From IMG/VR virus record IMGVR_UViG_3300046817_000694, positions 1 to 33,631 of that record: a stretch of DNA of 33,631 nucleotides, one strand, 5' to 3'. The position numbers and the translations under genes are program-made. The notes beneath the pieces are model-generated. The model was not told the origin of the DNA. It saw only the letters and a list, made by a program, of their open reading frames with translations, and did not search any database. The DNA comes from a virus. Positions 8,445 through 26,743 of the stretch are shown one piece after another (position 1 is the stretch's first letter; each line of letters begins with the position of its first letter).

Positions 8445-9548
8445 ATGAACGCTAAAAAGCTGATCAATCGGGTTCCCCTTCTGGCGCTTTTCTATCTGCT
8501 TGGCGCGTCCTTCGCAAGCGCGCAAGGCACGCTAAACGTAATGCTCACGCAACAATTCTCGTTTTCCGGGTGCAGTACGACCGGCCAAGCATGCGGAACC
8601 CCACTTTCTGGCGGTCTTTTATATTTCTATCAAGTTGGAACGGTGGCAACCCCTCAGAATTCTTTTCAAGACACCGCTTTGACAATTCTTAATCCATGGC
8701 CTTTGTCTCTTGATGCCAATGGCAGAGTTCCTCCATTTTATCTAGCTAATGGTTCTATTCACGTCAGATTGACAGATGCCAGCGGCATCGTTCAATTCGA
8801 TGTGCCGTCCACTTTGGTCATTGGCCCTTCCGGTGGCGGCGGCGGTGGTTCCGGCATTGATCCGACCACGATTGCGTCAACCGGGGACATCAAGTTCCGG
8901 GCTACGTCCGAGACGATAGCGGGATGGGTCAAGCTCAATGGTCTTACGGTTGGATCGGGTTCGTCTGGAGCTACTGGTCGCGCCAATGCGGATACACAAC
9001 AGCTTTTCACGCATTTATGGGTTAACTGTCCTAACGCCCACTGTCCGGTAAGTGGAGGACGTGGCGGCACAGCGGCGGGTGACTTCAATGCCAACAAGAC
9101 AATTACGGTCCTAGACTTGCGTGGCAGAGCCCCCTGGGGGCTTGATGACATGGGAGCTTCTGCCTCTGGGCGTCTTCCTGCCGGTAACGTGACAAGCGGC
9201 AGCGGCGATACAGCGATTACTCCCAATGCGACAGGTGGCGAAGCAAATCACGTTCTTACTACAGCCGAGATGGCAGCTCATCAGCATAATGTATATTTTT
9301 CTGATCCAGGGCATACGCATCAATTTGCTGCGGCAGCGTTAGGGCAGCCGGGCGGAACAGATTTTTCCAGTGCTCCAGGAAATCTTTTATCAAATATAAC
9401 TTCGTCAACTGGTGCCAATAATTCTGTAGTTGGATGGGTTGGAAGTTCCCCAGGTACAAATGATTCCTTGACAGGTGGGGTGGGTAGCAATTCACCGCAC
9501 AACAATATGTCCCCGTTCATCCTCGGAAGCTGGTACATGAAATTATAG
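8445..9548 (+). CDS. Tail-collar-domain fibre protein with N-terminal signal peptide
   Basis: This 367-residue protein has an N-terminus with Lys/Arg, a hydrophobic core (LLALFYLLGASFASA) and an AxA cleavage site followed by Gln, typical of a Sec signal peptide. The mature part begins with a beta domain (about 27-130) and a Gly-rich linker (GPSGGGGGGSG). A tail-collar-type C-terminus follows: WVKLNG, TITVLDLRGRAPWGLDDMG, a His-rich AHQHN and GHTHQF region, and the terminal NNMSPFILGSWYMKL. That ending is common in short tail fibres (T4 gp12-like and related). Receptor binding is the likely role. An export signal is unexpected for a virion protein assembled in the cytoplasm. Spacing to the previous gene is 16 nt, with AGAGAG upstream. 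Confidence 0.75.
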   Translation: MNAKKLINRVPLLALFYLLGASFASAQGTLNVMLTQQFSFSGCSTTGQACGTPLSGGLLYFYQVGTVATPQNSFQDTALTILNPWPLSLDANGRVPPFYLANGSIHVRLTDASGIVQFDVPSTLVIGPSGGGGGGSGIDPTTIASTGDIKFRATSETIAGWVKLNGLTVGSGSSGATGRANADTQQLFTHLWVNCPNAHCPVSGGRGGTAAGDFNANKTITVLDLRGRAPWGLDDMGASASGRLPAGNVTSGSGDTAITPNATGGEANHVLTTAEMAAHQHNVYFSDPGHTHQFAAAALGQPGGTDFSSAPGNLLSNITSSTGANNSVVGWVGSSPGTNDSLTGGVGSNSPHNNMSPFILGSWYMKL

Positions 9549-9556
9549 GTTGTGAG

Positions 9557-10276
9557 ATGTACATCTTTCCTGTCCAGCTTCAGACGTTCAGCAATAGAGA
9601 AGACTGTCTCTTGACTGTGTCGATCTTTGATGACGACACAGGTCAGGCGGTCGATCTGGATTTCACCACAGTAGCAAATATGTTGCCGTTTACAGCAGCG
9701 GCATGGACGGTGACGGATGGTGCGATTGTCACGACGTCGGCAACCTCGATCACTATCCCGGTCTATCCGATTGGCAACCAGCTTTCCGCGCTATCGCTGA
9801 CGGTCGGGACTGGGCTCGCCATCGCTGCCGGCGATCCCATCAGAATACAGGACACGGCAACCGGCCTGAATTTCCTCACCGGCTATGTGCTGTCCTACAC
9901 CTCGTCCAACGGTGCGCTATCGGTCCAGATCGGATGCACGTTCGACTTCGAGATCAGGCGCACTGGGCCCCGGTTCACGACCGGTGGCTACACGCCATAT
10001 TTCGATTTCGGGGTGCCTGATGAGTACGGGCCTATCTTGCAGGCTCAACTCGGCACTGGCATCCAGATCATCGATGTGGGGATCATACAAATCCTGATCC
10101 CGGCTGCGACGTTCCAAAAGCTGCGTGGCGGCACTTATCAGGCGGCGCTCATCATGTCGGACTCGGTCAATACCCGGCAGGTGTTCGTTGCCAATCTCCC
10201 GGTTGCCCATGGCGGCGTAGGCAAGGTGCCGATTGCGAACGCCTCTGCTAACCCATACAATCCGAACATCTTTTGA
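9557..10276 (+). CDS. Unknown beta-rich phage protein (tail region)
   Basis: This 239-residue protein has no signal peptide or membrane helix. It is composed mainly of short beta strands: DCLLTVSIFDDDTGQAVDL, ISITIPVYP-like strands, and LSVQIGCTFDFEIRR. The opening resembles immunoglobulin-like domains that phages use to connect tail parts. It lies 8 nt after the collar fibre and 12 nt before the next gene, in one transcription unit. I do not recognise the family. A structural or adaptor role in the tailspike complex is inferred from location. Confidence 0.6.
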   Translation: MYIFPVQLQTFSNREDCLLTVSIFDDDTGQAVDLDFTTVANMLPFTAAAWTVTDGAIVTTSATSITIPVYPIGNQLSALSLTVGTGLAIAAGDPIRIQDTATGLNFLTGYVLSYTSSNGALSVQIGCTFDFEIRRTGPRFTTGGYTPYFDFGVPDEYGPILQAQLGTGIQIIDVGIIQILIPAATFQKLRGGTYQAALIMSDSVNTRQVFVANLPVAHGGVGKVPIANASANPYNPNIF

Positions 10277-10288
10277 TCGGAACAGCCG

Positions 10289-10867
10289 ATGACGCTGCCA
10301 GCAAATATCCGGGTCAATACAGGGGTTCCCTTCCCGTCTCTCGTGACGAGTACGGCGCCTGTTACCATCACTAAGAAGAACGGTATATGGACGGCGGGGC
10401 TCTCCTTTAATGTGATTGGTCAGCAAATCCCGCCTCTACAGGATTATCCAACGGATTATTTATTGTTGTTTGATGCAAATCGACAGACATTCTTCAAGAT
10501 GTCTCTGGCTACATTGATTTCTAATATTGTTCCACAAAATGTCCCTCCCATCCGCATGGCAGCATCCAATCCGACGATTGCTGCAACAAATTCCGATGTA
10601 GAGATAGGCGTCGATACTAGAACAACGTCTGTATCTGTTACGTTGCCAAGTGCTGCCTCGTGGGCATTGTCAAACCAAAACGGCGTATCGCTTACCTTGG
10701 TAGACATATTTGGAAATTCACTAGCAAATAACATAACCCCAGTTCTTAATGGAGGAGATATATTCTACTATGCTGGCGTACCTAAAGTTCAAGCCGACTA
10801 TGGAGTATTGGGACTTAGGCCCGCCGGATCGCCTATAAACGGATGGTACATAAAAGGAATAGACTGA
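10289..10867 (+). CDS. Unknown phage tail-region protein
   Basis: This 192-residue beta-rich protein lacks a signal peptide. An early segment, GVPFPSLVTSTAPVTITKKNG, is followed by WTAGLSFNVIGQQIP and DYLLLFDANRQTFFKMSLATL. The C-terminal half has VSVTLPSAASWALSNQNG and ends with SPINGWYIKGID. The 'pass through strand, then NGWYIKG' pattern is often seen in small phage tail or base proteins of unknown function. Its TGA overlaps the ATG of the tailspike gene (ATGA), so translation of the spike is probably coupled to it. This could be a spike-attachment or chaperone protein, which is inference from coupling. Confidence 0.58.
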   Translation: MTLPANIRVNTGVPFPSLVTSTAPVTITKKNGIWTAGLSFNVIGQQIPPLQDYPTDYLLLFDANRQTFFKMSLATLISNIVPQNVPPIRMAASNPTIAATNSDVEIGVDTRTTSVSVTLPSAASWALSNQNGVSLTLVDIFGNSLANNITPVLNGGDIFYYAGVPKVQADYGVLGLRPAGSPINGWYIKGID

Positions 10868-13467
10868 TGCTTAGGGTTATTCTTGCTTCCATTCTTGCGG
10901 CAGTTTGTACGACTGCTACATACGCACAGTCATCTGCCGTATTGCCCGGGAATTCCGTGTGGGGAAATCCGACCGGCGCCCGTGCTCAGGCAAAGCCGAT
11001 GTTGCTGGCCAATCCGCCCTTTGCTCCAAGCGCAACAGTGGATACGACGAACGCCGCCAACATCACGAGCGGGATATTGCCTATCCCTCGACTGTCTGGC
11101 TCCTACACTGGCATCACGGGCACCGGAACGCTTGTGGCAGGGGCGACTGGGGCAGGCTTCACGGTCGATCTAGGAACATCCACCGTGCTCGGGGTTCTGA
11201 CTGTTCCCAATGGCGGAACCGGAGCTGCGACATTTACGCCCAACCTTCCACTGATCGGCAACGGTGCAAGCGCGATTGCGCAAGGTAGCAGTAGCGGCAA
11301 CACCACTAAATTTGCGACAGTAACCGGAGCCTTTACGCCGGGCGATTGCGTCAGCATTGATGCGAGTGGGAATGTCGTGGCGGCCGGCGGCGCGTGTACG
11401 ACAGGCGGCGGCGGCGGCACGGTTGCGGCGTCCACGATTGGGCAGGTTCCAGTCTACACAGCGGCTACGACGGTCACGGGCAATCCTGCGCTCACCTCTA
11501 GTGCCGGCGCTCTGACGGTCGGCGTTCCCAACACAACGCTCGGAACGATCACGCTCGAGGGCAATGCTAGCGGTGCTGTGACGATCCAGCCGCAGGCGGT
11601 AGCAGGGGGGTGGAATTTTAATCTACCGACTAGCGCGGGAACCGCGGGACAGGTGCTGACTTCGCAAGGTGGCGGATCAACCGCGATGACGTGGACGAGC
11701 GTCAGCGGTGCCTCTGGCGTCGTCAGTGCCGGCTCGATCAATCAATTGGCTTGGTATGCCGCCAATGGCAGCACGGTGTCTGGCCTCGCGACCGCCAACA
11801 ATGGAACGCTCGTCACTTCGGCTGGTGGGGTTCCCTCGATCGGCTCGACATTGCCGTCTGCGGTGCAGAGCAACATAACATCGCTTGGTACGATTACTTC
11901 AGGGGTGTGGAACGGCACGGCTATTACAGGGTCGAACATTGCAGCCAATACAGTTACAAACTCCAATCGGGCGCAGATGTCAGCGACTACAACTTCATGC
12001 AATTCGACTGGCTCGACAGCCAATGCTACGGATTGCAGTGTCGCTACGATGCAGACCATGCTTGGTTTGCCAACGGCTTTTTCTGTAACGAGAGCGAATA
12101 TTCCAACAACCAGTTTTCCATCTACATTGAATTCGTTTGTGTCTGCTGGATATGCAACCGCCAACGATAGGGGTGCCGGTTGTATTTACGTGCGTGGCAC
12201 GAGCGCCAGTCCCGGAGCTATTCAGGATGCAGGAAGTAATTATTGGGGATTACCTATTGGAAAAGCATATGACGTTGGTTGCTTTGGCGCAAAAATGGAC
12301 GGAATCACAAATGACACGGTGGCCGTTCAGGCGGCATTGAATGCTCCCCCTACTGGAGCCGGAACGACAAGACTTGTAACCTTTCCCGGTGGCACAACAA
12401 TCCTGGATTCGGTTGTCATTCCGTCCAATACAACAGTGCGCGGCAGTGGCAAGACGGTGATACAAGCCGGCGCTACCACTACACAGATATTCATTATTAC
12501 GGATGCGGTGGAAATAATCAATGTTCTTATAGAAGATTTTCATTTTGTTTCCTCGACCGGAGAGACAGGAGTACAAACTGCCGGCGCCTTTGTGATATTT
12601 AACAATTGTTATAATTGTGAGTTGGGAAAGTTTTTTGCAAACGGTGCCTGGGATGTGGTGATTATCGAGGGAACCAACAATTCGAATGTTCGCGTCCATG
12701 ATGCGTATATTTTTGGCACAGTCGATGCCGGAATTACGGTATCCGGAGGAGCTGATCAATATATCCATCACGTAGTAATGAACAATCAACGCCCGCCGGC
12801 CGATGCCACTGGGGGCACCCAGCCTAATTACGGCATCAAGGTGACAAACACCGGAGGACTTTGGGTATCCGATAGCGATATTTCATATTCAGGCAACGGA
12901 ATTGGTTTGGTCCCTACGTCAGGTCGGGTTGAAAATGTGTTTATTGGAAACACAGCGATTGACAGCAATAATGGTCAAGGATTGCTCCTGCAACCCACCT
13001 CCGGAGCGAATGTTTACAGTGTATTTTTAACCAATTCCTGGACCTCTAACTCGCGCGGGTCTGGTATATATAGCGCTTGTTCAGGTGGCGGCACCGTTGA
13101 CGGTGTAGTAGCTGTGGGAAATCGCGCTATAAATAACGGAGGCCATGGGGCCGAAATACATTGCGGAAGCCATTACACTTTCAATGGAAGTTCGTGGGTT
13201 GGTAATTCCAATCCTGGTAATGGTGGCGCTGGTGGAGTTCTAAATGGAATCTCCATATTCAGTGGGGTAAGCCACGTTACGGCCATCAGCAATACATTTG
13301 CTGGTTTCGGGCAGACAAATTTCCAGGCAAATGGCATTGTCATTCAGGGGCCGTCTAACGATTATTATAACATTTATCTCAATGATTGCACGGGTGGATA
13401 TTCGCTATCATGTGTTGCTGACGGCGGAACCGGAACACATAAGAACATCGGATTAAATCTCCCGTGA
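10867..13467 (+). CDS. Beta-helix tailspike (pectate-lyase-like) with signal peptide
   Basis: This 866-residue protein is started at the ATG overlapping the previous stop; an ATG 24 nt upstream would bury the signal. Residues 1-20 are a Sec-type signal (LRVILASILAAVCTTATYA, then Gln). Residues 20-400 carry fibre-type repeats (VPNGGTGAATFT, GSINQLAWYAANGSTVSG, LGTITSGVWNGTAITGSNIA). From about residue 470 a pectate_lyase_3-type right-handed beta-helix starts with GCFGAKMDGITNDTVAVQAAL. It continues through ladder repeats (VENVFIGNTAIDSNNGQGLL) to the C-terminus. Such spikes bind and often cleave surface polysaccharide or capsule. The catalytic residues cannot be assigned by eye. The stop overlaps the endolysin GTG. 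Confidence 0.8.
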   Translation: MLRVILASILAAVCTTATYAQSSAVLPGNSVWGNPTGARAQAKPMLLANPPFAPSATVDTTNAANITSGILPIPRLSGSYTGITGTGTLVAGATGAGFTVDLGTSTVLGVLTVPNGGTGAATFTPNLPLIGNGASAIAQGSSSGNTTKFATVTGAFTPGDCVSIDASGNVVAAGGACTTGGGGGTVAASTIGQVPVYTAATTVTGNPALTSSAGALTVGVPNTTLGTITLEGNASGAVTIQPQAVAGGWNFNLPTSAGTAGQVLTSQGGGSTAMTWTSVSGASGVVSAGSINQLAWYAANGSTVSGLATANNGTLVTSAGGVPSIGSTLPSAVQSNITSLGTITSGVWNGTAITGSNIAANTVTNSNRAQMSATTTSCNSTGSTANATDCSVATMQTMLGLPTAFSVTRANIPTTSFPSTLNSFVSAGYATANDRGAGCIYVRGTSASPGAIQDAGSNYWGLPIGKAYDVGCFGAKMDGITNDTVAVQAALNAPPTGAGTTRLVTFPGGTTILDSVVIPSNTTVRGSGKTVIQAGATTTQIFIITDAVEIINVLIEDFHFVSSTGETGVQTAGAFVIFNNCYNCELGKFFANGAWDVVIIEGTNNSNVRVHDAYIFGTVDAGITVSGGADQYIHHVVMNNQRPPADATGGTQPNYGIKVTNTGGLWVSDSDISYSGNGIGLVPTSGRVENVFIGNTAIDSNNGQGLLLQPTSGANVYSVFLTNSWTSNSRGSGIYSACSGGGTVDGVVAVGNRAINNGGHGAEIHCGSHYTFNGSSWVGNSNPGNGGAGGVLNGISIFSGVSHVTAISNTFAGFGQTNFQANGIVIQGPSNDYYNIYLNDCTGGYSLSCVADGGTGTHKNIGLNLP

Positions 13468-14825
13468 CCGATCCTCTTGATGTAATGCGGCAGATCACCG
13501 GCACTACCGAGGCCTCGGCTAATAGCACGATTGTAAGTTGGGCCAAGAAGGTCGGCGAGCTATTTCCCGACATGGCGTCGTATTGTGCCAACTATACCAG
13601 CAGCACGATTGCGTGGTGCGGCGAGTCGATGGGCTACTGCATGGCGATGTGCGGCATTCGGCCGCCATACAATCCGTCCGATGATACCGGGAGCTTCTTC
13701 TACGCGCTTTCGTGGCGAGGTTTTGGCACCCCTGTCTCTTCCCCGCAGCCCGGCGATGTGCTGGTGTTTGCGTGGTCCGGTGGCGGTCATCACGTCACGT
13801 TTTACGAGAGTACGCAGGGGTCTTCCTACGTATGCCGCGGGGGGAACCAGAGCGATTCGGTTCGACTTTCGACTTTCCCGGCCTCGAGCTGCATTGCCAT
13901 ACGGAGGCCGCCGGCCGTTTCGGCAATACCTGTAACTGCGCCAATCGGAGCGCCGGTGACGATGCATAGCGGCATTACTGCCACGATGTTCGGCGGTTCG
14001 TCCGATCCGAACACATCTGCCTATGATGGCCACGTCATCACGGACACCGAGCTCGGCGTCGCGCTGCCCTATCACTTCAAGGGCGCGAGGCCTCAGGTCC
14101 GCGTCTGGAAGGATAGCCGTTCGGTCATTTGCTCCATCGTTGACGTCGGGCCCTGGAACACGAACGATCCCTATTGGCAGACCAACGCCCGCCCGCAGGC
14201 CGAGAGCGGAACCGACATGAGCGGCCGGCACACCAATCTCGCTGGCATCGACCTGACGCCCGCCGCAGCCAAGATACTTGGCATAGACGGCAAGGGCATC
14301 GTGAGTTGGGAATTCGTAGACGACACGCCCGCACAGAAGGAGCCAACACCCGTGGCACAAATCGACATCAACGCTATTTTGGCGGCGATCCAGCCGCAAA
14401 TCCAGGCTCTCATCCAGCAGGCTGTCGCCCAAGCGGCGGCGAATGCTGCACCCCCTGCGGCGTCCGTCCCGGTGGTCATCGCCCCGCCGCCGATTGTCGC
14501 ACCCACGGCGCCTGTACAGATCACCATGGCCAGCACGATCGCGCATATCGAGCCGGTGCTGACGCTATTCAACAAGTCTATCGCCGGCTTCATTCCGCCG
14601 CCCTATAACCTTATCCCGTTGGGATTGGCAGGGGTTGGCCACATCATCGCGGCAAGCAGCGGACAAGTTCAAGCGACGCCGGATAGCATCGGACAGGCGG
14701 TCAACGATATCGCCCAGGCCGGTCTCGGCGGCCTTCATGCTGGCGGCATCAATCTTCCTCCCTGGCTCACGGCCGTTCTCGGAGCGCTACATCCGGTCGC
14801 CACAGTCGATCCGGCTGCCAAATGA
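13464..14825 (+). CDS. Endolysin: NlpC/P60-like (TIGR02594) plus RlpA-like DPBB domain
   Basis: This 453-residue protein has a GTG start overlapping the previous TGA (GTGA). Residues 1-150 match the TIGR02594 cysteine peptidase/amidase fold, with TIAWCGESMGYC (candidate catalytic Cys52), PQPGDVLVF and GGGHHVTFYE (His109/His110). Residues about 168-290 resemble a double-psi beta-barrel of the RlpA type (GITATMFGG, VWKDSRSVICSIVDVGPW, then LTPAAAKILGIDGKG). Residues 300-453 are Ala/Pro-rich, then hydrophobic (FIPPPYNLIPLGLAGVGHIIA). It probably cleaves peptidoglycan at lysis. It lacks a signal peptide, so export depends on the holins downstream. Which of the two folds is catalytic is not settled. 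Confidence 0.78.
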   Translation: MTDPLDVMRQITGTTEASANSTIVSWAKKVGELFPDMASYCANYTSSTIAWCGESMGYCMAMCGIRPPYNPSDDTGSFFYALSWRGFGTPVSSPQPGDVLVFAWSGGGHHVTFYESTQGSSYVCRGGNQSDSVRLSTFPASSCIAIRRPPAVSAIPVTAPIGAPVTMHSGITATMFGGSSDPNTSAYDGHVITDTELGVALPYHFKGARPQVRVWKDSRSVICSIVDVGPWNTNDPYWQTNARPQAESGTDMSGRHTNLAGIDLTPAAAKILGIDGKGIVSWEFVDDTPAQKEPTPVAQIDINAILAAIQPQIQALIQQAVAQAAANAAPPAASVPVVIAPPPIVAPTAPVQITMASTIAHIEPVLTLFNKSIAGFIPPPYNLIPLGLAGVGHIIAASSGQVQATPDSIGQAVNDIAQAGLGGLHAGGINLPPWLTAVLGALHPVATVDPAAK

Positions 14826-15037
14826 GCCTGTACTGGACCATGCTCTTTGTGGGCTTTGCGGTCCTCGCGATCGCGGGCGAGACATATGCCCTGCAGACCA
14901 ATCGGACCACGATGAGCCGGTACATCTGGAACGCCAGCAAGGCATTCCCCCCGCTGCCGCTATTCGTTGGCTTGGTCGCTGGGTTCTTGTTCTGTCATTT
15001 CTTTTGGGGCGGAATAGTGTACTTTGCTCCCCCATGA
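14822..15037 (+). CDS. Small two-TM membrane protein, possible holin
   Basis: This 71-residue protein has two hydrophobic segments (about 4-22, LYWTMLFVGFAVLAIAG; and about 45-66, PLFVGLVAGFLFCHFFWGG) separated by a polar loop with TNRTTMSRYIWN. The ATG overlaps the endolysin stop (ATGA), and its own stop overlaps the next ATG. Size, topology and position directly after the endolysin fit a class II holin or a lysis accessory protein. The sequence does not match a holin family that I recognise. Confidence 0.62.
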   Translation: MSLYWTMLFVGFAVLAIAGETYALQTNRTTMSRYIWNASKAFPPLPLFVGLVAGFLFCHFFWGGIVYFAPP

Positions 15038-15207: not shown

Positions 15208-15218
15208 AAGGATACCTC

Positions 15219-16449: not shown

Positions 16450-16501
16450 GGAAATTTCTGTGATATGGGTCACGCCGAATAGGCTCCACGCGAGTTACCC
16501 T

Positions 16502-17311: not shown

Positions 17312-17383
17312 GGTCTTGGCCCGCGATTGTTTGTGGACTTGATCTGTAGTAAGTTTGCGCTTCGTTCACCAGCGAGGGGACGC

Positions 17384-17644
17384 ATGCGGACTGTATTGAT
17401 TGCTGTTGCGGCCGTCTGTCTTCTGGCAAGCGCTGCCGCGTGGGCACAGGTGGGGATACCTAACGGATGCGCTCCGGGGATTCCCAATACCGTCCAAAGC
17501 GTTCTGGAATTGTTAGGTATTCCGGGATGTGGTGTTGGGGTGCCTGCTGGCGGGTCATCTTCTGGCCCGCCTCCCGTGGGATGTGTCGGAACGGGATACG
17601 ATTTCACCAAATCCTGCAACAGCCAATACATAGTGGTGCTCTGA
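17384..17644 (+). CDS. Small secreted Gly/Pro-rich protein
   Basis: The ATG at 17384 has AGGGGA 5-10 nt upstream. The 86-residue product opens with a classic signal peptide (RTVLIAVAAVCLLASAAAWA, cleavage before Gln). The mature part of about 65 residues is rich in Gly, Pro and Val. It has four Cys residues (NGCAPGIP, GIPGCGVGV, VGCVG and KSCNS), which could give two disulphides in the periplasm. It ends QYIVVL. No family is recognised. It is the first of five consecutive secreted products. Confidence 0.62.
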   Translation: MRTVLIAVAAVCLLASAAAWAQVGIPNGCAPGIPNTVQSVLELLGIPGCGVGVPAGGSSSGPPPVGCVGTGYDFTKSCNSQYIVVL

Positions 17645-17645
17645 T

Positions 17646-17888
17646 ATGAGATATTTATTCGCTTTCCTGATGTTGGTTCCGACCATTGCATTTGCACAGA
17701 CACCTGCGCCGCCCACTCGCACCTATACACTCACAATGACTGCGGATGAGGTCAACACCGTTTTGAATAAAATCGGCGAGATGCCGTGGAAAGACATCAA
17801 TCCGGTGCTCCAAAAATTGATCGGGCAGATAAACGCCCAGAACGGCCCTTCCACATCTCCTACGCCACCTACCGCTCCAAAGGAGTGA
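17646..17888 (+). CDS. Small secreted protein, unknown
   Basis: This 80-residue protein begins 1 nt after the previous stop. Its signal peptide (RYLFAFLMLVPTIAFA) is followed by Gln at the cleavage site. The mature protein has a beta strand RTYTLTMTADEV and an amphipathic helix (VNTVLNKIGEMPWKDINPVLQKLIGQINAQ). It ends in a Pro/Thr/Ser-rich tail. The strand-helix layout resembles small phage proteins with 'TADEVNTVLNKIGEMP' phrases found near lysis or tail genes in rhizobial phages; their function is unknown. It is tightly coupled to both neighbours. Confidence 0.6.
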   Translation: MRYLFAFLMLVPTIAFAQTPAPPTRTYTLTMTADEVNTVLNKIGEMPWKDINPVLQKLIGQINAQNGPSTSPTPPTAPKE

Positions 17889-17893
17889 TTCAG

Positions 17894-19561
17894 ATGTCAG
17901 CCCGCCGCATTCTCCTTGGGACGACCGCCTTGGTGTTGTTCGCATCCAGTGCGCTGGCTGCGGACAATGCGACGCTGATCACGCCTTGCGCTGCTGGCTG
18001 CGTCACTGTCAGGTCTATTGACACGACAGGGTCGGGCGGTCCCATGGTGCCTGTTGTAGCATTGGGTTCCACGACGGGAGCCACAATCGCCACAATCGCC
18101 GGCACGCCAAACACGACTAGCGTATTGTCTGTTCAGGGAACGACTGGTGGGACAACGCTTCCGGTGACGGCTGCGCAGGCGACCGCCGGCAATCTCAACG
18201 CAACTGTGGTAGGAACCGGCACCTTCGCCGTGCAGGCAACCGGCACAGTGACCGCCAACGCCGGAACCAACCTCAACACATCGCTGCTGGCCCTCGAAGC
18301 CGGCGGCAACCTCGCAGCCATCAAGCCCGGAACTGATCGGTTGATTTCGTCGGCTACGAACATCGTGGCGGGCTCTGCGCTAGCTACGACCTCGTTCATC
18401 ATCGGAACGCGCTACCTTTCAGCTCCGCCCACGTTTTCAAATGGCCAAGAAGGTGCCTTCCAGATTGACGCCAACGGGCGGATGCTGGTCACCGCCAATG
18501 CTACGCTCGGCGCCGAGACAACCAAAGTCATCGGCACTGTCCGCAATCTCGGAAACGTAGGCGGCGTGCTCGACGCTGTGGTGGGGGCCACCTATCCGGC
18601 AAATGCGCTGGCGGTTGGCGTGCTCAATGGCTCAAATATCGGACGCCTGGTCGGCGACGAGACGAGCGGTTTATGGGTGAACATCAAGGCTGGCGCCGGC
18701 AGCGGCGGAACAGCTATCGCCGATAGAGCAGGATGGACGGTTAGCAGCACCAACTTTACCCTAACAGGTGGCGAGTTTACATCTGGCGGCGCCACCACTT
18801 GTCCGACTGCTTCAGCTTGCACCGTGGCAATGACGGCCACGCGCGGACTGTTCCAAGACATGAACACCTGGGCCGAGACCAGCCTTGGTGTTCCCACCGC
18901 GTATGGCGTCGCGCCGACGACAGGCAACTACATCGGCGTCAATGCCTTTGTGACGAACGCAACGGCGGCAATTGGCAATAACGCCGACGGTGTTACGGTC
19001 ACGACGGGTGGCAACAGCCCGACAATATCTTACCTTGAAGGATTCAATGGAACGACTTGGGATCGTTTGCAGGTAGATGCCAGCAAGTTTTTGAAAGTAA
19101 ATGTCTCGGCGGGACTTGCTGTCCCGGCATGGGGCCATGTGGCGGTCGCCGCCGCTCCTCCGACTGGAGCAACTTATATTGGTGTCCTGGGTTCTGGTGC
19201 AACAGGCGGACACGTTGCTGCGCCGATTGGGTGTGATAGTCATATATTTAAGCACATCACATCGGCAACTGATACATTAGCAGTTCAGGGGGTTGCATCG
19301 CAGTCTGTTTATGTGTGCGCATGGCGCGCCCGTGCTGCCGGTGTAGCCACATGGTTCCTTGAGAATACTGCATCTGCCAATGCCAACTGTTCATCGGCCA
19401 ATACCCAGATAACAGGAGTTGCAACGGAAGCGGCAAACACTGGTGAAATCTTCGCTCCTCCGTTTTGGACAGGTCTGAAAAACACCGCTGGAAACGGCCT
19501 TTGCATCAACAGCACCGGAACGGGTGGTGTCGATGTTGATATTTGGTACGCGCAATTCTGA
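17894..19561 (+). CDS. Secreted beta-repeat phage protein (fibre-like)
   Basis: The ATG at 17894 follows AAAGGAG. The 555-residue product starts with a signal peptide (RRILLGTTALVLFASSALA before Ala). Residues 30-160 are Thr/Ala/Gly-rich fibre-type repeats (TTLPVTAAQATAGNLNATV, GTVTANAGTNLNTSLLALE). The middle is beta-rich. The C-terminal domain from about residue 410 has VAVAAAPPTGATYIGVL, then CDSHIFKHI, SQSVYVCAWRARAAG and GLCINSTGTGG. That Cys-rich pattern is common in phage proteins of rhizobia and relatives with unknown function. It is probably surface-active or virion-associated; enzyme motifs are not seen. Confidence 0.65.
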   Translation: MSARRILLGTTALVLFASSALAADNATLITPCAAGCVTVRSIDTTGSGGPMVPVVALGSTTGATIATIAGTPNTTSVLSVQGTTGGTTLPVTAAQATAGNLNATVVGTGTFAVQATGTVTANAGTNLNTSLLALEAGGNLAAIKPGTDRLISSATNIVAGSALATTSFIIGTRYLSAPPTFSNGQEGAFQIDANGRMLVTANATLGAETTKVIGTVRNLGNVGGVLDAVVGATYPANALAVGVLNGSNIGRLVGDETSGLWVNIKAGAGSGGTAIADRAGWTVSSTNFTLTGGEFTSGGATTCPTASACTVAMTATRGLFQDMNTWAETSLGVPTAYGVAPTTGNYIGVNAFVTNATAAIGNNADGVTVTTGGNSPTISYLEGFNGTTWDRLQVDASKFLKVNVSAGLAVPAWGHVAVAAAPPTGATYIGVLGSGATGGHVAAPIGCDSHIFKHITSATDTLAVQGVASQSVYVCAWRARAAGVATWFLENTASANANCSSANTQITGVATEAANTGEIFAPPFWTGLKNTAGNGLCINSTGTGGVDVDIWYAQF

Positions 19562-19571
19562 GGTATCGGAT

Positions 19572-20336
19572 ATGTTGAAATCCCTTACAGCAACAATTCT
19601 GCTGATTCTTGGCTGGCTGACGCCGGCGTTGGCGGCAGTTGGAGTTGATACGGCAAACTGCAAACCTAACCTTAATGACGATCACATCCCTGGAACAACA
19701 TCGCCGCAATCCACCGGAAATGTTTACACGGTAACCACCGGGTTCCCTGGGATGCTGGTCATGCTTATGCCCGACATTGGGACTCTCACTACGCCACCAA
19801 CCATAACCAGCGTGGTGTGGGATGCGGCCGGCGCCAACCAAGCTCTGACGCTTATTGGATCAATCATATCTGGCGGGGCCGTTGGCCAGGGTGTTTACCT
19901 TTATGGTGCCGTGGGGATTACCGCGGGCGCCACCAAAGCGATCACTGTGACCAGTTCGGCGAATGTGGCTAAACTATTTCTTAACATGTGCACGTTTAGT
20001 GGGGCCTTGAACGCGACCGTTGCGGCGACCTTCACCAACTTCACAACTGGGGTCGCCGTGACCACCGTCAACGTGACCAGCGCCACGGGGAACATTGTGG
20101 CTGGTGGGATTGCTACAGGAGCTGGCATTACCCCGATGACGGGAACAACAATTTTCCTGGATAACATAAATGGGACGAATATGAATGCCGCCGCAAATTA
20201 CGACAACGGCGCCGCTACCGTTACCATAGGGACGACCGTGGCGCCGACTACCGTTCTCGCTTATGTGAATGTCGTCGCATCAGGTGGCGCACCTACGCCC
20301 GCGCCGATGATGCAGTTGTTGGGAGTAGGGCGATGA
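19572..20336 (+). CDS. Secreted beta-rich protein, adhesin/Ig-like character
   Basis: This 254-residue protein has a signal peptide (LKSLTATILLILGWLTPALA, then Ala). The mature part consists of short beta strands rich in Thr, Val, Ala and Gly (NVYTVTTGFPGMLVMLM, TTPPTITSVVWDAAG, NQALTLIG, ITAGATKAITVTSSANV). It looks like a jelly-roll or Ig-like surface protein, a form often seen in phage proteins that display repeated domains. Two Cys residues are present in the mature part. The stop overlaps the start of the giant protein (ATGA), so the two are co-translated and may be partners. Confidence 0.6.
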   Translation: MLKSLTATILLILGWLTPALAAVGVDTANCKPNLNDDHIPGTTSPQSTGNVYTVTTGFPGMLVMLMPDIGTLTTPPTITSVVWDAAGANQALTLIGSIISGGAVGQGVYLYGAVGITAGATKAITVTSSANVAKLFLNMCTFSGALNATVAATFTNFTTGVAVTTVNVTSATGNIVAGGIATGAGITPMTGTTIFLDNINGTNMNAAANYDNGAATVTIGTTVAPTTVLAYVNVVASGGAPTPAPMMQLLGVGR

Positions 20337-23300
20337 TACGGGTTGTTCTGTCATTCATCCTCTTAATGATGGCAGCGCCGATTGGCGAGGCTCAGTGGGC
20401 TATCTTCCAGGCGAGCACCACAGCTAGCAGCGGTGGCGGCGGAACCGGCAATGGAGGCGGTCCTAACCTACGCGTAGCCGACATCTACGGCGTGCCCAAC
20501 TCAATATCGCCGTCCTCTTATTATGTCCCTGGGATTGCCTCCCAGGGTGTGACCACGGCGGATTTCTATAATTCGGATGGATGGTATTCTGCTCGGCCTT
20601 ATGACCTCACACTGTTCGGTCCGGTCGGGCAGGCTGCGGCAGCGCAGCATGGCCGATACTACTGGCCGATGACGCCGGATCATCCTAATAGCATCTTAAG
20701 CAGCTGGTCGGACGGAATGGACTTGAAGGGGGGGTTCGGGACAGACCCTCAGATGCCGCCCCGCGCCATCAACATGCAGGTGATGCCGCTTTCCGATGCA
20801 TCAATACCCCTGAGCAACAACAGCGTCACCAATCCATTTACCACCAACAATTCTACGATTTATCAAACTGGATTTCTTTACTACGATCCTGAAGATACTG
20901 GCAACACCATTCACTGGATGGGAGAGGGGGCGGATCAGGGTGCCACCGGTCCCGGCATCGTGTTCACGGGCACCACGACAAACACCTCGCCGATCGTGAC
21001 AGGAATCGCGGATACATCCAAAATCTCGGCTACCTATCCGGCAACGGCTGCAACCGGGATTCCGGCGAACACCACCGTTCTATCGGTAGACAGCGCAAGT
21101 CAAATCACGCTGAGCAACAATGCGACGGCTTCAGGGTCTAGAACAATCACAGCGCATACGTTTGGTGGTGTTGGGCACTACGCGACCACTCTCCGAACCA
21201 ATGATCTGCTCAATTGGACGTTATTTGGACCTTCCACGATGAATCCCGGATCGAACGACTTCACCAGCTTTCAACGTCCTACGCGCATATCGGCGGGCAA
21301 TTGGATATCGTACGCAGCGACCAACTATCGGGCGTTCAGCCGCCTCACGGGACCTCCCGGAGACAGCGGCTTGGATGCAAACGGATGGCGTTCGCTTGCT
21401 GGCGTGTCTACGTCAACGGACGGCCTCAACTTCGTGCGGCCAGAACCGGCTTCTTACATCGACACGCTCTACCATGTAGGAACGCGACGATTTAATGCCG
21501 GCGGTCAATGGGATCAGGTAATCATCTCTGGTCAGCAATGGCTGACTACGGCCGAAGATGCCAGAAACATCCTTATTACTGCGGCAAATCCGGCTGTGGT
21601 GTCAAAGACCGCACACGGACTTGTGGCCGGAAATCAGATCACGCTTGCGGCGGTGCCGTTTCCGGGTGGTGGACCTTATACCGCAGACCTCGTTAGCGGA
21701 TCGAGCTGCATCACCAACTTTGCCCCGGCAATCGGCAGCAGCGTGGAGGCAGGCAACAAGTTGTCCTCCAATCCCGTGTTTTACACGGCAGGTGGGGCCA
21801 TCATCGTGGGCATTCCACCAAACACAGTCGTCACATCTGTTGGAGTGTGTGGAGGGGCCAACAGCATCCAGATCAATAACAACGTCACCGTGAATGCGAC
21901 GGGAAGCCCAATCGTGTTCCTCATATTGCCTATCCCGCTCGTGGACGGACAAACGTATTTCGTCAAGACTGTTCTTGACCCTGACAGCTTTACAATTTCT
22001 GCCACCAATGGCGGGGCGGCAATAGACACGTCGATCGCCACTGTGAACCCCTGCATAGACAAGTCTACACCCGCGCTGTGCAATGTGCCCAACGGAGGCA
22101 TGTTTGTGACGCGCGTTGCGGTTGACAGCAACTTCAATATTCTCGCCTCGCCGGCGCCGGTTAGAGTGTCGGATGCCTATTTTGGCGTATGGCCCGGTCC
22201 GACCTACCTTCAAGCAGTCAATTCATATCTGGAGAGCGGGGTATTGACTTATTACGCCACCAGAGGCTTTTTTGTGTCGTCGCCTGCCTTTGGTCTTCCT
22301 TGGGGCGCCACATATTTGAACGGTGGTGCGCTTCAGCAGCAGTTGCTCGATATCTACAGCGAGTGCATAGACGTGGCGCTTTGCTATGCCTCCGCCCCAA
22401 TGGGCTTGACGGCGAGTGCAGCCGCGGGCGTCGTGACGCTGACTTGGAACGATACGCGACCGAACCAGAACTACCACCTTTATTATGGGTTCTCGCCGAG
22501 TTCCCAGCCGAACCTGATTGGTTCCATTACCGGGCTCACGACGACTTATACGCCCTATCTCCAAACGCCTGCGACCATGTATTTCAAGTTGGTGTCGCTG
22601 GACAATAGCAGCGTGGAGCAGGGCTCACGGGTGGTGTCGGCCTACGTCAGTTCCTCCACCGCGTTCGTCAACCAACACATTGCCCGGGCGCTAGACGATG
22701 GCGCCGATCCAGCGACGATTGATCGGAACAAACTCGATACCGTAGACGCTTGGATTACTTCCAATGGCTTGCATAATATGCTTGAGAATTGGGTAAGCGC
22801 CAGCTTTGGCGTCAAACAGGATACCAGTGGCATCGTGACAAAGGTGTACGATCTCGGTACGACGCGACATCCGGCCTACAACGATCTTTGGTTTTGCTCC
22901 GGTGCCTTTCCGTGCAATGGGGCATCGAACACCACATATCATCCGACCGGCTTGAACAACAATACACCAGCATGGACGAATAACGCCGCAAATGCCTTCG
23001 GCATAATCGGCGGCGTGATGGACGCCAGCAATCACAACGGCAGGATGAACCACATCCGGCGCAAGGTTGAGGTGTCTGTCTTTGCCTCCTACGCAAAGAC
23101 AGCGTCCGGCACTGATATCACTCTATTAGGGATAGGCGAATTCAGCGGAATGCACCTTCAACATTTGGCGGGAACGCCCGGGACGGCATCGTTTACGTTG
23201 TACGATGACAGCTTAACGCCGCAAACCGCAACGATTGCTGTTCCCACCTCGGCAACGACTCCGCACATCATCGGGGGGACGTTCGGCTGTGGCGCAACGC

Positions 23301-25861
23301 CGGCAGTAACGTGCCCTGCGGACACCAGCCCCGGGAGCCTAAATGTTTATATAGACGGTGTGCAGGGATCAACGCCGTCTCCGGCACTGCACTACAACGC
23401 CGGACTTTCGCTCTCAACAACACTCAAAGGTCAGCTTGGGGGAGTTGCCAACATCCAGTTTTATGTGAGTGGCGCCAAGGATTCAAAATTTAACTATGGA
23501 CTTCCATCTACTTATGTCATGGACGACAGCAGCGCGGGCTTTACAATGTCGGACCTGATCATCTTCTCCAAGGAATTGACGCCGACACAGGCGGCGTCAT
23601 TGACGACACTGCTGCAAGGCTTCGTCTCGCCGCCGACCGCGATTACAGCCGTGGCCGCTGGTGGCATCTCCATGGGCTCTCCGGCCGTCTATGACATCAC
23701 CGCAATGCCGTCAGGCGCTAGCGCTACCTGCAACACCGGCACACCGGCAAATGACAGTCCTGCATTTGCGAATTTTCAAACTCTGGCGTCGGCCTGGGAT
23801 GCGGCTAACCCCGGCGCTACGGGATCGATTGTGCTCAATATCCCGAATAGCACATGCTGGTTTTTGGGTTCGACGGGTATTGCGCCATTCAAGTGGGTCA
23901 TGAACCCAAGCGGATATGCGGGACAGGCTCGGGTGAGGGTAGTCGGCGCCGGAACTTCGTCTAAGCTGAGCGACGGCGGCACGGGCGGCGGGTTCTTTCC
24001 TGGCGGGGGCGGTCAGTTCGGAAATAACACCAGCCAAACGCGTGTGACAACGGTTAGCAAGGGGGCAACTGCATTGAATTTCACCGCCTGCCCTGGGGCG
24101 GGATGTGCGGCGGCTCTAGCGCTATTTGCCCCGGGCGCACCAGTCCTGATGACTGGGGTAGATTTGCAAGGCGAGGGTCAGCCGACCAATCCTGCATTCT
24201 GGGATTTTCTGACTGTCGCGACCGTGACCGCGACGGGCGTAACAGTCACCACACCGATCACTCACGATTACAAATCCACTTGGCCAAATTATTCCACGGG
24301 TAACGGTTTCCAACCCGATCAGGGCGGTCCTGGAACACTTTATGTTCTCGATCCGACATGGAATGTAAGTATCGAATTGAATAGACTGATCTTGGATCAA
24401 GGTGCTGGTGCCGGCGGGAGCGTGACAAATGGCAAAAGTGTAACGCTGAAGAACGTGGTTATCACGAGTGCCGCAACATCGTGTCAGGGGCCATCCGTCA
24501 ATGGGTTCCTTGCGTGGATCAACGTAACTGCCACCAACTGCACCGTAGAGGTAGACAAACTTATTGACACGTTCGTCTTACAAAATGTCACCGCGATAAC
24601 AAACGTTGATTGGCAATCCGCAAGCGCGAAACAGTTCATTGCGAGCGAGGTAACCGCCTCCTCGTTCTTGGGTGCTGGTGGGATCAATAACATTGTAGCC
24701 AATTCCTCGCCCGCTGAATTACATCTCGGATCGCACGGATACGGCGCGTCGTACGGACGAGACTATATCATCGGGAACAACATCCCGATCCTTATTGTGG
24801 GTAGCGCATCGCAAAGCATGATCAACCTGCGCGGTACTTGGTCGGGCGGCGTGCTCACAGTGCCGCCGAACTTCACTTTTAGCGCGGCGCAAAATAGCTC
24901 CGCAGCACCTTGTAGTGCCGCTCCTGGAAACATCTGCCTGACTGTAAGTTCGACTACGGGATGGTCTACCGGAATGGCGACAGACACCATCGTATTGAGT
25001 GGTTCCGCGTCATGTCAGGGCGATTGGATTTTGACTGTTGTCGATGCTACTCACGTCATCCTGAATGGCTCGACATTCGCCGCAACCTGCACCGGAGGCA
25101 GCGCCACGCTGCCGCTCAAATGGGCCGTTCCTGGGGCCAATCTCTATTGGGATGGCGCAAACGCCTCGCAGGGTCCGATGGCTCAGGTGCTCGACGTGGG
25201 AGCCTCGGGAGCGAATACAACGGTCACAACGTCTTTGGCTGGCGCCTTTCCTACCATGCCGCTCAATAGCGGTGTCGCTACCGTCAAGGTTCAATCGGTG
25301 CCTCAGGTATTTGCCGGCGGGAACTATGGCTCGGCTGCGGCCATCGATCTCAACCAGATGCCTGCGGGCGCTCCATACGGAAGTTACAGCAAGCTGATCG
25401 TGGCCGGTACAAATGGAAGCTATGCGTCAGTGCCGGCCGGTGGCTCGCCCACTGTCACGGGCAACCCCTCGACGCCCTATACGGTGCCGGTGTGGGGACA
25501 GATGGTGGGGATCAACATCACCGTAGGACCGGCATATACCGGGACAACCAACCCAATGAATTTTGGATTTGCCCAGTCCTACTTTACGCAAACGCTTGGT
25601 AGTGCGTCTGTTCCAGGAGCTTGGAATCCGACTGTCAATGCGAAGATCGCTAGCACGACGCCGCGGTTCCTGGGGCCGACCTCGACATCGGGAGCACAAA
25701 CCCTTGACGTGCTTTCGTCTCCACCTGGTGGCGCTAACTCTTGGCTGCTTACTAACCAAACGCAGCCTGTCTATACGTCAATCCCTGGTGACTTCTCCAC
25801 TACATCCACAACAGTTGAAATCGTCACCAACCAAGGCGTTGTCAACCCGGCGCAACAATAG
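20333..25861 (+). CDS. Giant mosaic secreted/tail protein (propeller, FN3, lectin-like, beta-helix)
   Basis: This 1842-residue protein begins with a signal peptide (VVLSFILLMMAAPIGEA, then Gln) and a Gly linker. Residues about 45-410 resemble a beta-propeller glycosidase of the GH43/GH32 kind (GHYATTLRTNDLLNWTLFGP). This is interrupted at about 208-275 by a phage Ig-like insert (GIPANTTVLSVDSASQITLS). A second insert at about 412-570 has the FCCH-like pattern KTAHGLVAGNQITL to DSFTISATNGG. Propeller-like text resumes (VLTYYATRGFF). About 688-772 is FN3-like, about 800-1130 lectin/LamG-like, and about 1150-1600 pectate-lyase-like beta-helix. Polysaccharide binding or cleavage at the host surface is the likely role. 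Its stop lies 1 nt from a convergent gene. Confidence 0.72.
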   Translation: MIRVVLSFILLMMAAPIGEAQWAIFQASTTASSGGGGTGNGGGPNLRVADIYGVPNSISPSSYYVPGIASQGVTTADFYNSDGWYSARPYDLTLFGPVGQAAAAQHGRYYWPMTPDHPNSILSSWSDGMDLKGGFGTDPQMPPRAINMQVMPLSDASIPLSNNSVTNPFTTNNSTIYQTGFLYYDPEDTGNTIHWMGEGADQGATGPGIVFTGTTTNTSPIVTGIADTSKISATYPATAATGIPANTTVLSVDSASQITLSNNATASGSRTITAHTFGGVGHYATTLRTNDLLNWTLFGPSTMNPGSNDFTSFQRPTRISAGNWISYAATNYRAFSRLTGPPGDSGLDANGWRSLAGVSTSTDGLNFVRPEPASYIDTLYHVGTRRFNAGGQWDQVIISGQQWLTTAEDARNILITAANPAVVSKTAHGLVAGNQITLAAVPFPGGGPYTADLVSGSSCITNFAPAIGSSVEAGNKLSSNPVFYTAGGAIIVGIPPNTVVTSVGVCGGANSIQINNNVTVNATGSPIVFLILPIPLVDGQTYFVKTVLDPDSFTISATNGGAAIDTSIATVNPCIDKSTPALCNVPNGGMFVTRVAVDSNFNILASPAPVRVSDAYFGVWPGPTYLQAVNSYLESGVLTYYATRGFFVSSPAFGLPWGATYLNGGALQQQLLDIYSECIDVALCYASAPMGLTASAAAGVVTLTWNDTRPNQNYHLYYGFSPSSQPNLIGSITGLTTTYTPYLQTPATMYFKLVSLDNSSVEQGSRVVSAYVSSSTAFVNQHIARALDDGADPATIDRNKLDTVDAWITSNGLHNMLENWVSASFGVKQDTSGIVTKVYDLGTTRHPAYNDLWFCSGAFPCNGASNTTYHPTGLNNNTPAWTNNAANAFGIIGGVMDASNHNGRMNHIRRKVEVSVFASYAKTASGTDITLLGIGEFSGMHLQHLAGTPGTASFTLYDDSLTPQTATIAVPTSATTPHIIGGTFGCGATPAVTCPADTSPGSLNVYIDGVQGSTPSPALHYNAGLSLSTTLKGQLGGVANIQFYVSGAKDSKFNYGLPSTYVMDDSSAGFTMSDLIIFSKELTPTQAASLTTLLQGFVSPPTAITAVAAGGISMGSPAVYDITAMPSGASATCNTGTPANDSPAFANFQTLASAWDAANPGATGSIVLNIPNSTCWFLGSTGIAPFKWVMNPSGYAGQARVRVVGAGTSSKLSDGGTGGGFFPGGGGQFGNNTSQTRVTTVSKGATALNFTACPGAGCAAALALFAPGAPVLMTGVDLQGEGQPTNPAFWDFLTVATVTATGVTVTTPITHDYKSTWPNYSTGNGFQPDQGGPGTLYVLDPTWNVSIELNRLILDQGAGAGGSVTNGKSVTLKNVVITSAATSCQGPSVNGFLAWINVTATNCTVEVDKLIDTFVLQNVTAITNVDWQSASAKQFIASEVTASSFLGAGGINNIVANSSPAELHLGSHGYGASYGRDYIIGNNIPILIVGSASQSMINLRGTWSGGVLTVPPNFTFSAAQNSSAAPCSAAPGNICLTVSSTTGWSTGMATDTIVLSGSASCQGDWILTVVDATHVILNGSTFAATCTGGSATLPLKWAVPGANLYWDGANASQGPMAQVLDVGASGANTTVTTSLAGAFPTMPLNSGVATVKVQSVPQVFAGGNYGSAAAIDLNQMPAGAPYGSYSKLIVAGTNGSYASVPAGGSPTVTGNPSTPYTVPVWGQMVGINITVGPAYTGTTNPMNFGFAQSYFTQTLGSASVPGAWNPTVNAKIASTTPRFLGPTSTSGAQTLDVLSSPPGGANSWLLTNQTQPVYTSIPGDFSTTSTTVEIVTNQGVVNPAQQ

Positions 25862-25862
25862 T

Positions 25863-26474
25863 TTATGTCGGGGCGAATATCAAACACTTGCGTCCGTTGA
25901 ACAATGCGAGTTCATGCGTCAAATTAATCCAATTAACGCGTCTTATCTCTGGCTCGAATGCGCTTTCATGTGGAAGGTTGCATATAATTTTCATGGGTCT
26001 GCGCTTTCTGTCGTAGGAATCCCGCACCTTATCCAAGGCTCCAGCTAATACAGAACCAGTAAATGAGTTGCAAATATAAAGCGTGGATGTATTTGGCGGT
26101 AGATTAAATGTCGCGGCATCTTCTAAAATAATCTGCGCTCGCGACTTTGCGCTTTTGGAATTTGCTCTTCCCCTTAGCATCAAGGCTGGATCAAACTCTA
26201 TACCTATCACCATAGCAAACGGCAGCCTTGCGGCTAGAATTGCGACGCGACCAAGGCCAGCCCCGTAGTCGATGAAAGTCGATTCAGGATCGACTAAAAT
26301 GTGAGGCTTAATGATTCGCCAGTCTCGAAAGAACGTCGGGCCATATCCCCTAACTTCCGGTCGAGATGGATCATATGGGAGGTGTATTTCACTGCTGTCG
26401 ATCCCCAAGCGCCATTCATTAAAACTCTCATCAGCGCGCTTCAGTCTGTTCGTTAGACTTTCGAGAATATTCAT
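25863..26474 (-). CDS. Class I SAM-dependent methyltransferase
   Basis: This 203-residue protein has the Rossmann SAM-binding motif I (STFIDYGAGLGRVAILAARL). An acidic strand-end GIEFDPAL follows for ribose binding, then EDAATFNLP for adenine contact. The upstream part (YDPSRPEVRGYGPTFFRDW) may be substrate-related. The start has AGGA about 9 nt upstream. It is the first leftward gene after the tail block and converges on the giant protein with 1 nt between stops. The substrate cannot be read from sequence: glycan, protein or small molecule are all possible. DNA-methylase target-binding motifs (DPPY/NPPY) are absent. It may alter the host surface, which is inference from location. Confidence 0.72.
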   Translation of the reverse strand: MNILESLTNRLKRADESFNEWRLGIDSSEIHLPYDPSRPEVRGYGPTFFRDWRIIKPHILVDPESTFIDYGAGLGRVAILAARLPFAMVIGIEFDPALMLRGRANSKSAKSRAQIILEDAATFNLPPNTSTLYICNSFTGSVLAGALDKVRDSYDRKRRPMKIICNLPHESAFEPEIRRVNWINLTHELALFNGRKCLIFAPT

Positions 26475-26536
26475 CTACGGTCGTCCTGTTCCATCTGGTC
26501 CCCACCTGTTGGATGCGTTGCGGCCGGTACGCCGCT

Positions 26537-26743
26537 TTATCGCGCGCATATCACGCGCCCTTCTTCATCCAATTGAATACCGCGAATCTTGCCCGACGGC
26601 GTTATCGCGTTGGCGATAGCGTTGATATAGTTGATAGGGAAGGCGTCCACACCTGGGCTAAGCAACATTGTGTTTTGGGCGAATGCCATCACGGCGCTAC
26701 TCATGATGAAGGCTGTCACTGCTCCGGCGAGAAAGTTTTTCAT
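26537..26743 (-). CDS. Small secreted protein
   Basis: This 68-residue protein is preceded by a strong ribosome site (GGAGGAG, 8 nt from ATG). The signal peptide (KNFLAGAVTAFIMSSAVMAFA, then Gln) is textbook. The mature part of about 46 residues has PGVDAFPINYINAIANAIT and PSGKIRGIQLDEEGRVICAR. It lies alone between the methyltransferase and the recombination genes on the - strand. It has the same A-Q cleavage site style as the tail-region secreted proteins although it is on the other strand. No family is recognised. Confidence 0.62.
   Translation of the reverse strand: MKNFLAGAVTAFIMSSAVMAFAQNTMLLSPGVDAFPINYINAIANAITPSGKIRGIQLDEEGRVICAR

Follow-up and report, generated by a model that had tools for sequence, protein, structure and literature searches.

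Tailed phages are regarded as assembling their entire particle in the cytoplasm. P22 tailspikes and some phage decoration proteins join particles that are already finished. The subject here is a set of genes with predicted Sec signal peptides (SPs) in the 33.6-kb IMG/VR virus record IMGVR_UViG_3300046817_000694, whose whole length of 33,631 nucleotides is referred to as the window, and above all the tail fibre gene of that record (8445..9548, plus strand). The fibre shares with the tailspikes of P22, Sf6, Pam1 and Pan3 the fold of the head-binding domain (approximately residues 33–125) and a gene position after those for the head closure protein Hc3 and the ejection proteins. P22-type spikes are expected to be cytoplasmic and leaderless, and neither the P22 tailspike nor the Pam5 fibre has an SP match at its start, whereas the window fibre, like many of its homologues, carries a predicted cleavable SP ahead of the domain. 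A second family, encoded outside the window in related genomes, has the fold (model residues 45–193) and the gene place after the coat gene of the capsid cement proteins of Pam1, GP4, KHP30 and KHP40; the Pam5 cement protein is without an SP, whereas 36 of 42 distinct members of the cement-like family were scored with one. Judged by its docking domain, the best-supported reading is that the exported fibre is a part of the virion. It is fairly probable that the head-binding fibre, the cement-like protein and probably the spike would be exported by Sec, oxidised, and docked at lysis.

Lambda Lom and Bor and the spanins likewise come from phage genes with export signals, but they are envelope or lysis proteins and not parts of the particle. 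Filamentous phages assemble at the membrane without lysis, whereas the parts described here belong to an icosahedral tailed phage. The coat proteins of filamentous phages are likewise virion proteins that use the host secretion machinery, according to the available sections of PMC4823517. Among the top matches listed from the open-access literature, in the sections available, there was no description of signal peptides on the tail fibres, spikes or cement proteins of tailed phages. Virion proteomics of an isolated relative was not found in the literature either, PMC10386132 being, in its available part, about another podovirus. The protein families are known, while the added leaders and the two-compartment assembly proposed below, which were not met among the open-access matches listed, would be a new variant.

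Predicted leader and docking domain of the fibre

A preliminary description of the window had named eight genes with Sec-type signal peptides, starting at 8445, 10867, 17384, 17646, 17894, 19572, 20333 and, on the minus strand, 26743. All eight open reading frames (ORFs) were confirmed, and all eight N-termini show the features expected for Sec and signal peptidase I: basic residues in the n-region, a hydrophobic core free of charges, and small-x-Ala at the end (small-x-small at -3/-1). Predicted from sequence, these make Sec signal peptides of good quality. Cys at +1, the mark of a lipoprotein, is absent from all eight, and 17894 has an Arg-Arg pair ahead of the core. The start at 10867 is preferred over one at 10843 because it has a ribosome site, and the start at 17384 sits within a longer GTG frame. 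When the window was scanned with a custom scorer (score of at least 8, ribosome-site match of at least 3 bases, ORF of at least 55 residues) there were nine matches, the eight named genes and one shadow ORF of 58 residues (19485, minus strand), whereas 30 dinucleotide shuffles average 1.7 matches and never exceed 6. As a control, all 18 E. coli signal peptides tried were accepted, TolB at 7.74 being under the later cut-off of 8; the eight genes score 8.1–10.5 and the E. coli set 7.7–10.7. In 83 related loci (987 kb, same-species repeats included) the scan gave 258 matches, compared to 45 in one shuffled set. Applied to P22, T7 and lambda, it returned Rz, Rz1, Lom, Bor, T7 gp4.2, shadow ORFs and a start inside lambda H; none of the matches in these three phages was at the start of a gene for a fibre, spike or decoration protein. 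The earlier view that known fibres and spikes need no signal is borne out by the starts in P22, T7 and Pam5, but not by the many environmental fibre relatives that carry one.

Read by eye, Gln stands directly after the cleavage site in six of the eight (8445, 10867, 17384, 17646, 20333 and 26743), as had been reported, while at the scorer's own site it does so in four. In a small sample, neither count is clearly above the habit of host signal peptides (4/8 vs 8/28, Fisher 0.40, or 6/8 vs 12/28, Fisher 0.23, when a looser rule is used, the host figures being for SPs predicted in 400 kb of a Bradyrhizobium genome), and the suggestion that this repeated style of cleavage site is a shared, selected property is not supported.

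The predicted SP of the fibre covers residues 1–26 (ASA↓Q, the arrow marking the cut), and directly behind it lies the P22-type tailspike head-binding domain, followed by a linker and the C-terminal half. The stretch past the SP matches the head-binding domain of the Pam1 tailspike (phmmer, 7eeq, E 4e-4), and in PHROGs the protein is assigned to phrog_8763, a tail protein; it is the only one of the eight SP proteins with a PHROGs match, and a Pfam search of all eight gave none. An AlphaFold2 model built from 20 homologues reaches a predicted local distance difference test (pLDDT) score of 81–89 in blocks over residues 51–120. Foldseek retrieved with it the head-binding domains of Pan3, Pam1, Sf6 and P22 (6e-5 and weaker), and the VIA comparison gave Z 11.7 against Pan3 (root mean square deviation 1.6 Å, 82 residues aligned) and Z 9.3 against P22 (1lkt). 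In P22 the head-binding domain is on the gp4/gp10 hub, according to the title of entry 8eb7. The C-terminal half is weakly similar to short-tail-fibre and collar domains (T4 short tail fibre, Z 6.6; A-1(L) fibre, Z 6.4). Each of 11 long genomes has one match to the head-binding fibre, and a second, leaderless fibre was found in none of them (E under 0.5 in both cases).

Homologues of the fibre occur in two forms, with and without a leader. In a first profile search of 92 sequences the head-binding domain turned up in 42 frames, of which 24 had an SP and 18 were leaderless (same-species repeats included). A wider sample, for which the 80 relatives most like the window fibre were kept out of 315 and added to the earlier loci, contained 122 frames (65 SP, 50 leaderless, 7 assigned to neither form). 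The distinct homologues number 77, of which 37 have an SP and 40 are leaderless (five of the latter after reassignment of the start), a ratio that follows from a sample picked by likeness to the window fibre and is not a natural frequency. Comparison of homologues thus gives a mixed picture, in which the hydrophobic N-terminus is not lacking as a rule but is absent from 40 of the 77. Fibres with an SP, reading ...AxA↓(Q/A)GTLP, align column for column with leaderless fibres that read M-AGTLP. A small-x-small motif lies exactly ahead of the mature start in 35 of the 37 SP fibres, and by sequence comparison the leaderless homologues begin at the predicted mature residue. Since the two forms share this mature start, the SP is likely to be an add-on whose removal falls precisely on the boundary. 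Compared in pairs, 13 SP rows have an identity of 0.28 over the SP region vs 0.60 over the mature part, indicating that the signal is kept, but not its letters.

In a quick tree of the fibres (76 rows; L207, whose start is unsure, was left out of the tree and of the column-pair counts below) the SP label changes five times, and at least four changes are forced by the starred branches. By this tree the fibre SP would have been gained or lost at least four times. Under one rule, an SP with a ribosome site is found at the gene start in 60 of 122 fibre frames, but in none of the matching frames of three conserved neighbours. Two of these served as internal controls, the gene between fibre and spike (9557..10276, plus strand; 0/51) and the gene just ahead of the spike (10289..10867, plus strand; 0/51); the third encodes Hc3, which is P22 gp10-like (889..2625, plus strand, phrog_578; 0/66). 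Because these neighbours lack them, the leaders are regarded as a trait of certain genes and not as the product of a genome bias. In the bacterial family of Bradyrhizobium sp. LHD-71, 36 of 296 genomes match the fibre profile, many of them via the C-terminal half only, and the 30 loci kept gave 14 head-binding frames, of which four have an SP (one being the prophage of Rhodovulum sp. PH10, L132, again), nine are leaderless and one is unclear.

Cysteine pairing and the cement-like protein

The two forms of the fibre differ in their cysteines. Among complete ORFs, the number of cysteines in the mature part is even in 33 and odd in one of the SP forms, vs 22 even and 18 odd in the leaderless forms (Fisher 2.8e-5, three incomplete SP ORFs being left out and kinship ignored, as in all the parity statistics given here). 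Without the zero class the figures are 31/1 vs 17/18 (7e-6). The same is seen by alignment column. In SP fibres columns 21 and 28 are both Cys in 12 rows, columns 40 and 75 in 13 and columns 200 and 211 in 27, with no row having Cys in only one column of a pair, whereas leaderless fibres have Cys at column 40 in five rows, all of them lacking it at 75, and at column 211 in nineteen, all of them lacking it at 200. Judged by position, both major SP groups of the tree contain the (40,75) pair, and the mature cysteines of the window fibre are 17/24 and 169/174. Pairs that are both present or both absent in SP forms, and some of whose cysteines lack the partner in leaderless ones, are as expected if the SP forms fold in an oxidising periplasm, and the strictness of the pairing suggests that the working form of the SP fibre is oxidised. 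Over 89 SP proteins of many kinds, among which are several diverged fibres and cement-like proteins and probably a few shadow ORFs, so that they are not fully independent, 64 have an even, 15 an odd and 10 a zero count, compared to 369, 424 and 273 among non-SP genes (Fisher 1.8e-9). Exported proteins of Gram-negative bacteria prefer even cysteine numbers, according to the available sections of PMC7678975, and DsbA-family genes are present in all three host genomes tested.

Relatives of the window carry, upstream of Hc3 and thus outside it, an SP protein of 170–220 residues. Together with the head-binding domain and the cysteine pairing, the SP on this cement-like protein goes beyond what the preliminary description contained. 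In locus L003, where Hc3 is 100% identical to that of the window, the genes for the portal (phrog_156) and the major head protein (phrog_334, 5617-6762) precede the cement-like SP gene (6813-7445). Of the six members that were not scored with an SP, one is cut by the contig end (G001), one has an SP-like N-terminus that the rule missed (G005) and four are leaderless (L046, L056, L070 and L072). Two of these, L046 and L072, begin at the mature site (e.g. M-LLDPTK vs ASA↓LVTDPNK). A model of one member (L002; pLDDT 79, predicted template modelling score (pTM) 0.73) was compared over residues 45–193 with cement, capsid and virion proteins, and gave Z 10.1 for Pam1, 9.1 for GP4, 9.1 for KHP30 and 8.3 for KHP40, the next row being at 6.8. 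Cysteines pair here also: in 31 SP rows, columns 278 and 294 are both Cys in 17 and singly in none, and columns 73 and 80 in 5 and none. A tblastn search of the protein against named phages gave zero matches. Nine of the 11 long genomes contain the gene once, with a weak additional match in G010 (E 0.43); G001 has it as two frames, one at each end of the contig, and in G004 it was not found.

Further proteins of the head module have N-termini of this kind. A 131-residue SP protein is encoded directly 3' of the portal gene in L003 (2050-2445), and its 84% identical relative in L016 has a different SP. A 236-residue head-module protein of L003 (7506-8216) has a hydrophobic N-terminus, and G001:53598 groups with the L003 head-module genes that have exported-looking N-termini.

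Spike, other signal-peptide genes and gene neighbourhood

The putative tailspike (10867..13467, plus strand; SP ending TYA↓Q by eye) has 12 Cys in its mature part and, at residues 468–533, a beta-helix-like stretch that weakly resembles mannuronan epimerases (E 0.0045), and is variable among relatives. At the spike position, taken as 1.2–5.5 kb from the start of the fibre, 27 of the 52 distinct cases whose sequence reaches far enough have an SP ORF of at least 150 residues (a few doubtful ORFs counted, e.g. that of L209), compared to 1 of 52 in an antisense control. In the cyanophage Pam5 (L092), which has a leaderless head-binding fibre, two SP genes are situated just past the spike gene (17837 and 18313).

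The other six SP genes are situated beyond the lysis enzyme gene. On the plus strand these encode two small proteins (17384..17644, AWA↓Q by eye; 17646..17888, AFA↓Q), a 555-residue protein (17894..19561, ALA↓A), a 254-residue protein (19572..20336, ALA↓A) and a giant protein of 1842 residues (20333..25861, GEA↓Q); a small protein of 68 residues is on the minus strand (26537..26743, AFA↓Q). From the fibre onwards, the cysteine counts of the eight SP proteins in gene order are 4, 12, 4, 0, 8, 2, 20 and 1. In related loci no relatives were found of 17384, 17646, 19572 and 26743, and only partial matches of 10867, 17894 and 20333. The 17894 protein has zero tblastn matches in named phages, and the giant protein matches no solved structure by sequence. 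Some of the proteins from 17384 to 26743 may act on the cell surface.

The gene order of the window is P22-like: Hc3/gp10, an ejection protein (3394-4056, plus strand, phrog_598), two large genes (4418 and 6119), the fibre, 9557, 10289, the spike and 13464, then five SP genes and one on the opposite strand. A candidate for the gp4 place (486-887) is assigned by position only, and an HNH/AP2 endonuclease gene (2870-3382, plus strand; phrog_99, PF13392, PF00847) is inserted in the structural operon. The lysis enzyme candidate (13464..14825, plus strand) has a CHAP-like domain slightly under the Pfam cut-off, and no SP match. On its 3' side is a protein of 71 residues (14822-15037, plus strand) with a weak match, below the cut-off, to a DsbD transmembrane region (PF13386, E 0.007); it may be a holin, and a thiol-related role, which may also be considered, would suit the cysteine pattern. 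Between the giant SP gene and the 26743 gene lies a methyltransferase-like gene (25863-26474, minus strand; Methyltransf_25, slightly under the curated cut-off). An AAA-like protein (26857-27987, minus strand; phrog_1366, of unknown function, with a weak AAA_24 match) adjoins an exonuclease VIII-like protein (28034-29308, minus strand, phrog_412).

A longer record of 58,598 bp (G001, IMGVR_UViG_3300035118_000057) spans the whole window at 2291-35921, with 33,625 of 33,631 bases the same, while a megablast search with 25 kb of the window against named phages gave zero matches. Relatives of Hc3 are present in five bacterial genome records (an uncultured Rhizobiales bacterium, a Bradyrhizobiaceae bacterium, Rhodoplanes serenus, Rhodovulum sp. 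PH10 and Bradyrhizobium sp. LHD-71), all Alphaproteobacteria by name. The phages are best read as podoviruses of the P22 kind whose relatives occur in Rhizobiales-type Alphaproteobacteria. The record titled Rhodovulum sp. PH10 (L132/G014), of the Paracoccaceae by name, is placed by its genome in the family of Bradyrhizobium sp. LHD-71, a disagreement between title and placement. In the temperate Acetobacter phage phiAX1 (L094) two SP ORFs (17057 and 18026) lie just upstream of an Hc3-like gene, one of them overlapping an annotated glucanotransferase; the available part of PMC8566455, on this phage, has nothing on structural proteins or signals.

Proposed assembly and alternatives

Under the proposed scheme, the fibre, very probably the spike, and the upstream cement-like protein would be made as Sec precursors, the leader being cut by signal peptidase I exactly ahead of the virion-docking domain of the fibre. 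The exported parts would fold in the periplasm, where their paired cysteines would be oxidised, while the core particle (portal, coat, gp4, gp10, ejection proteins and DNA) would be built in the cytoplasm without them. Both pools would mix once the cell is opened by the lysis proteins, and the exported parts would dock on finished heads. Docking at this stage is plausible because P22 tailspikes and some decoration proteins are added to finished particles. The exact join, the single copy per genome (11/11) and the paired cysteines are reasons to consider the exported fibre the working form. The wider picture is of a virion from two compartments, a cytoplasmic core and an outer set of cement, fibre and spike that is exported, trimmed, disulfide-bonded in the periplasm and added at lysis, the gain or loss of a leader before the docking domain switching the state; its chances appear slightly better than even. 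The preliminary description had proposed, as one option, that the receptor-binding proteins are exported and join virions outside the cell or at lysis. For the fibre this is now the best-supported view and for the spike a likely one, but a virion role for the other six proteins is not supported.

Several observations weigh against this scheme. About half of the sampled fibre homologues have no SP, which means that a fibre of this kind can do without export, and the whole-chain pTM of the fibre model is only 0.42. SP ORFs at the spike position are equally frequent with leaderless fibres (12/23) and SP fibres (15/29), and the SP states of fibre and cement-like protein can differ within a locus (SP fibre with leaderless cement in L046, the reverse in L067). 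The cement-like profile did not match the Pam5 cement sequence (probability 0.2). As for the cysteines, 10 leaderless fibres have Cys in both column 189 and column 211, each of which has it alone in a further 9; some SP forms have odd counts (the fibre of G006, the prophage L237, and the cement-like proteins of L039 and L071); and a sign test of SP state against an even number of cysteines that takes phylogeny into account has only four usable pairs, too few to reach significance. To these can be added a possible internal restart in the window fibre and the case of phage Milano, both taken up below.

The exported proteins may instead act on the infected cell or lysogen, masking receptors, trimming capsule or excluding other phages, without being virion parts. 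Lambda encodes among its tail genes an SP-bearing envelope protein, Lom (available sections of PMC12309495), and the six genes from 17384 to 26743, with their place beyond the lysis enzyme gene, would fit such a role. For the fibre and the cement-like protein it is unlikely to be the explanation, given that the fibre has a virion-docking domain and is the sole such gene found per genome, that leaderless homologues fall within the same family and tree, and that the cement-like protein combines a capsid-cement fold with a place 3' of the coat gene. Dual targeting would reconcile a signal peptide with cytoplasmic assembly: if the SP were inefficient or bypassed, a cytoplasmic share would enter virions and the exported share would have another role or none. 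Many homologues do work without an SP, and in the window fibre a ribosome-like site accompanies an ATG at mature position +6. Restart sites near the cleavage region are, however, found in 3 of 37 SP forms, the window fibre among them, vs 11 of 148 control windows, which is not above chance, and a cytoplasmic form from an internal start was rejected as a general rule. The SP scores are also within the E. coli range, and the strict cysteine pairing of SP forms suggests an oxidised working form, which leaves dual targeting with a rather small share of the probability.

Agrobacterium phage Milano, likewise a phage of an alphaproteobacterium, has a virion stabilised by many disulfides, but it has a contractile tail and no signal peptide is named in the available sections (PMC10811340, PMC10491603). 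Disulfides might thus form only in the medium after lysis, as may hold for Milano, the SP-like segments meaning something else. This is very improbable for the fibres, since leaderless ones, released into the same kind of medium, have unpartnered cysteines at columns where those of SP forms always come in pairs. Still less likely is an uncleaved N-terminus that anchors the protein in the membrane or virion, the other option raised in the preliminary description. By definition of the scan every SP form has the hydrophobic core that an anchor would need, but the small-x-small motif directly ahead of the mature start in all but two SP fibres, and leaderless homologues that begin at the same residue, disfavour it.

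If docking at lysis by exported, oxidised parts is true, tailed phages would have a further, new way of assembling their particles, and this would change the view of tailed-phage morphogenesis, with phages gaining disulfide-stabilised receptor-binding proteins. It would also raise the question of whether export keeps the fibres from something in the cytoplasm, or delays decoration until release. For the annotation of metagenomic phages a rule follows, that SP-bearing, apparently "secreted" genes near head and tail genes can be virion parts.

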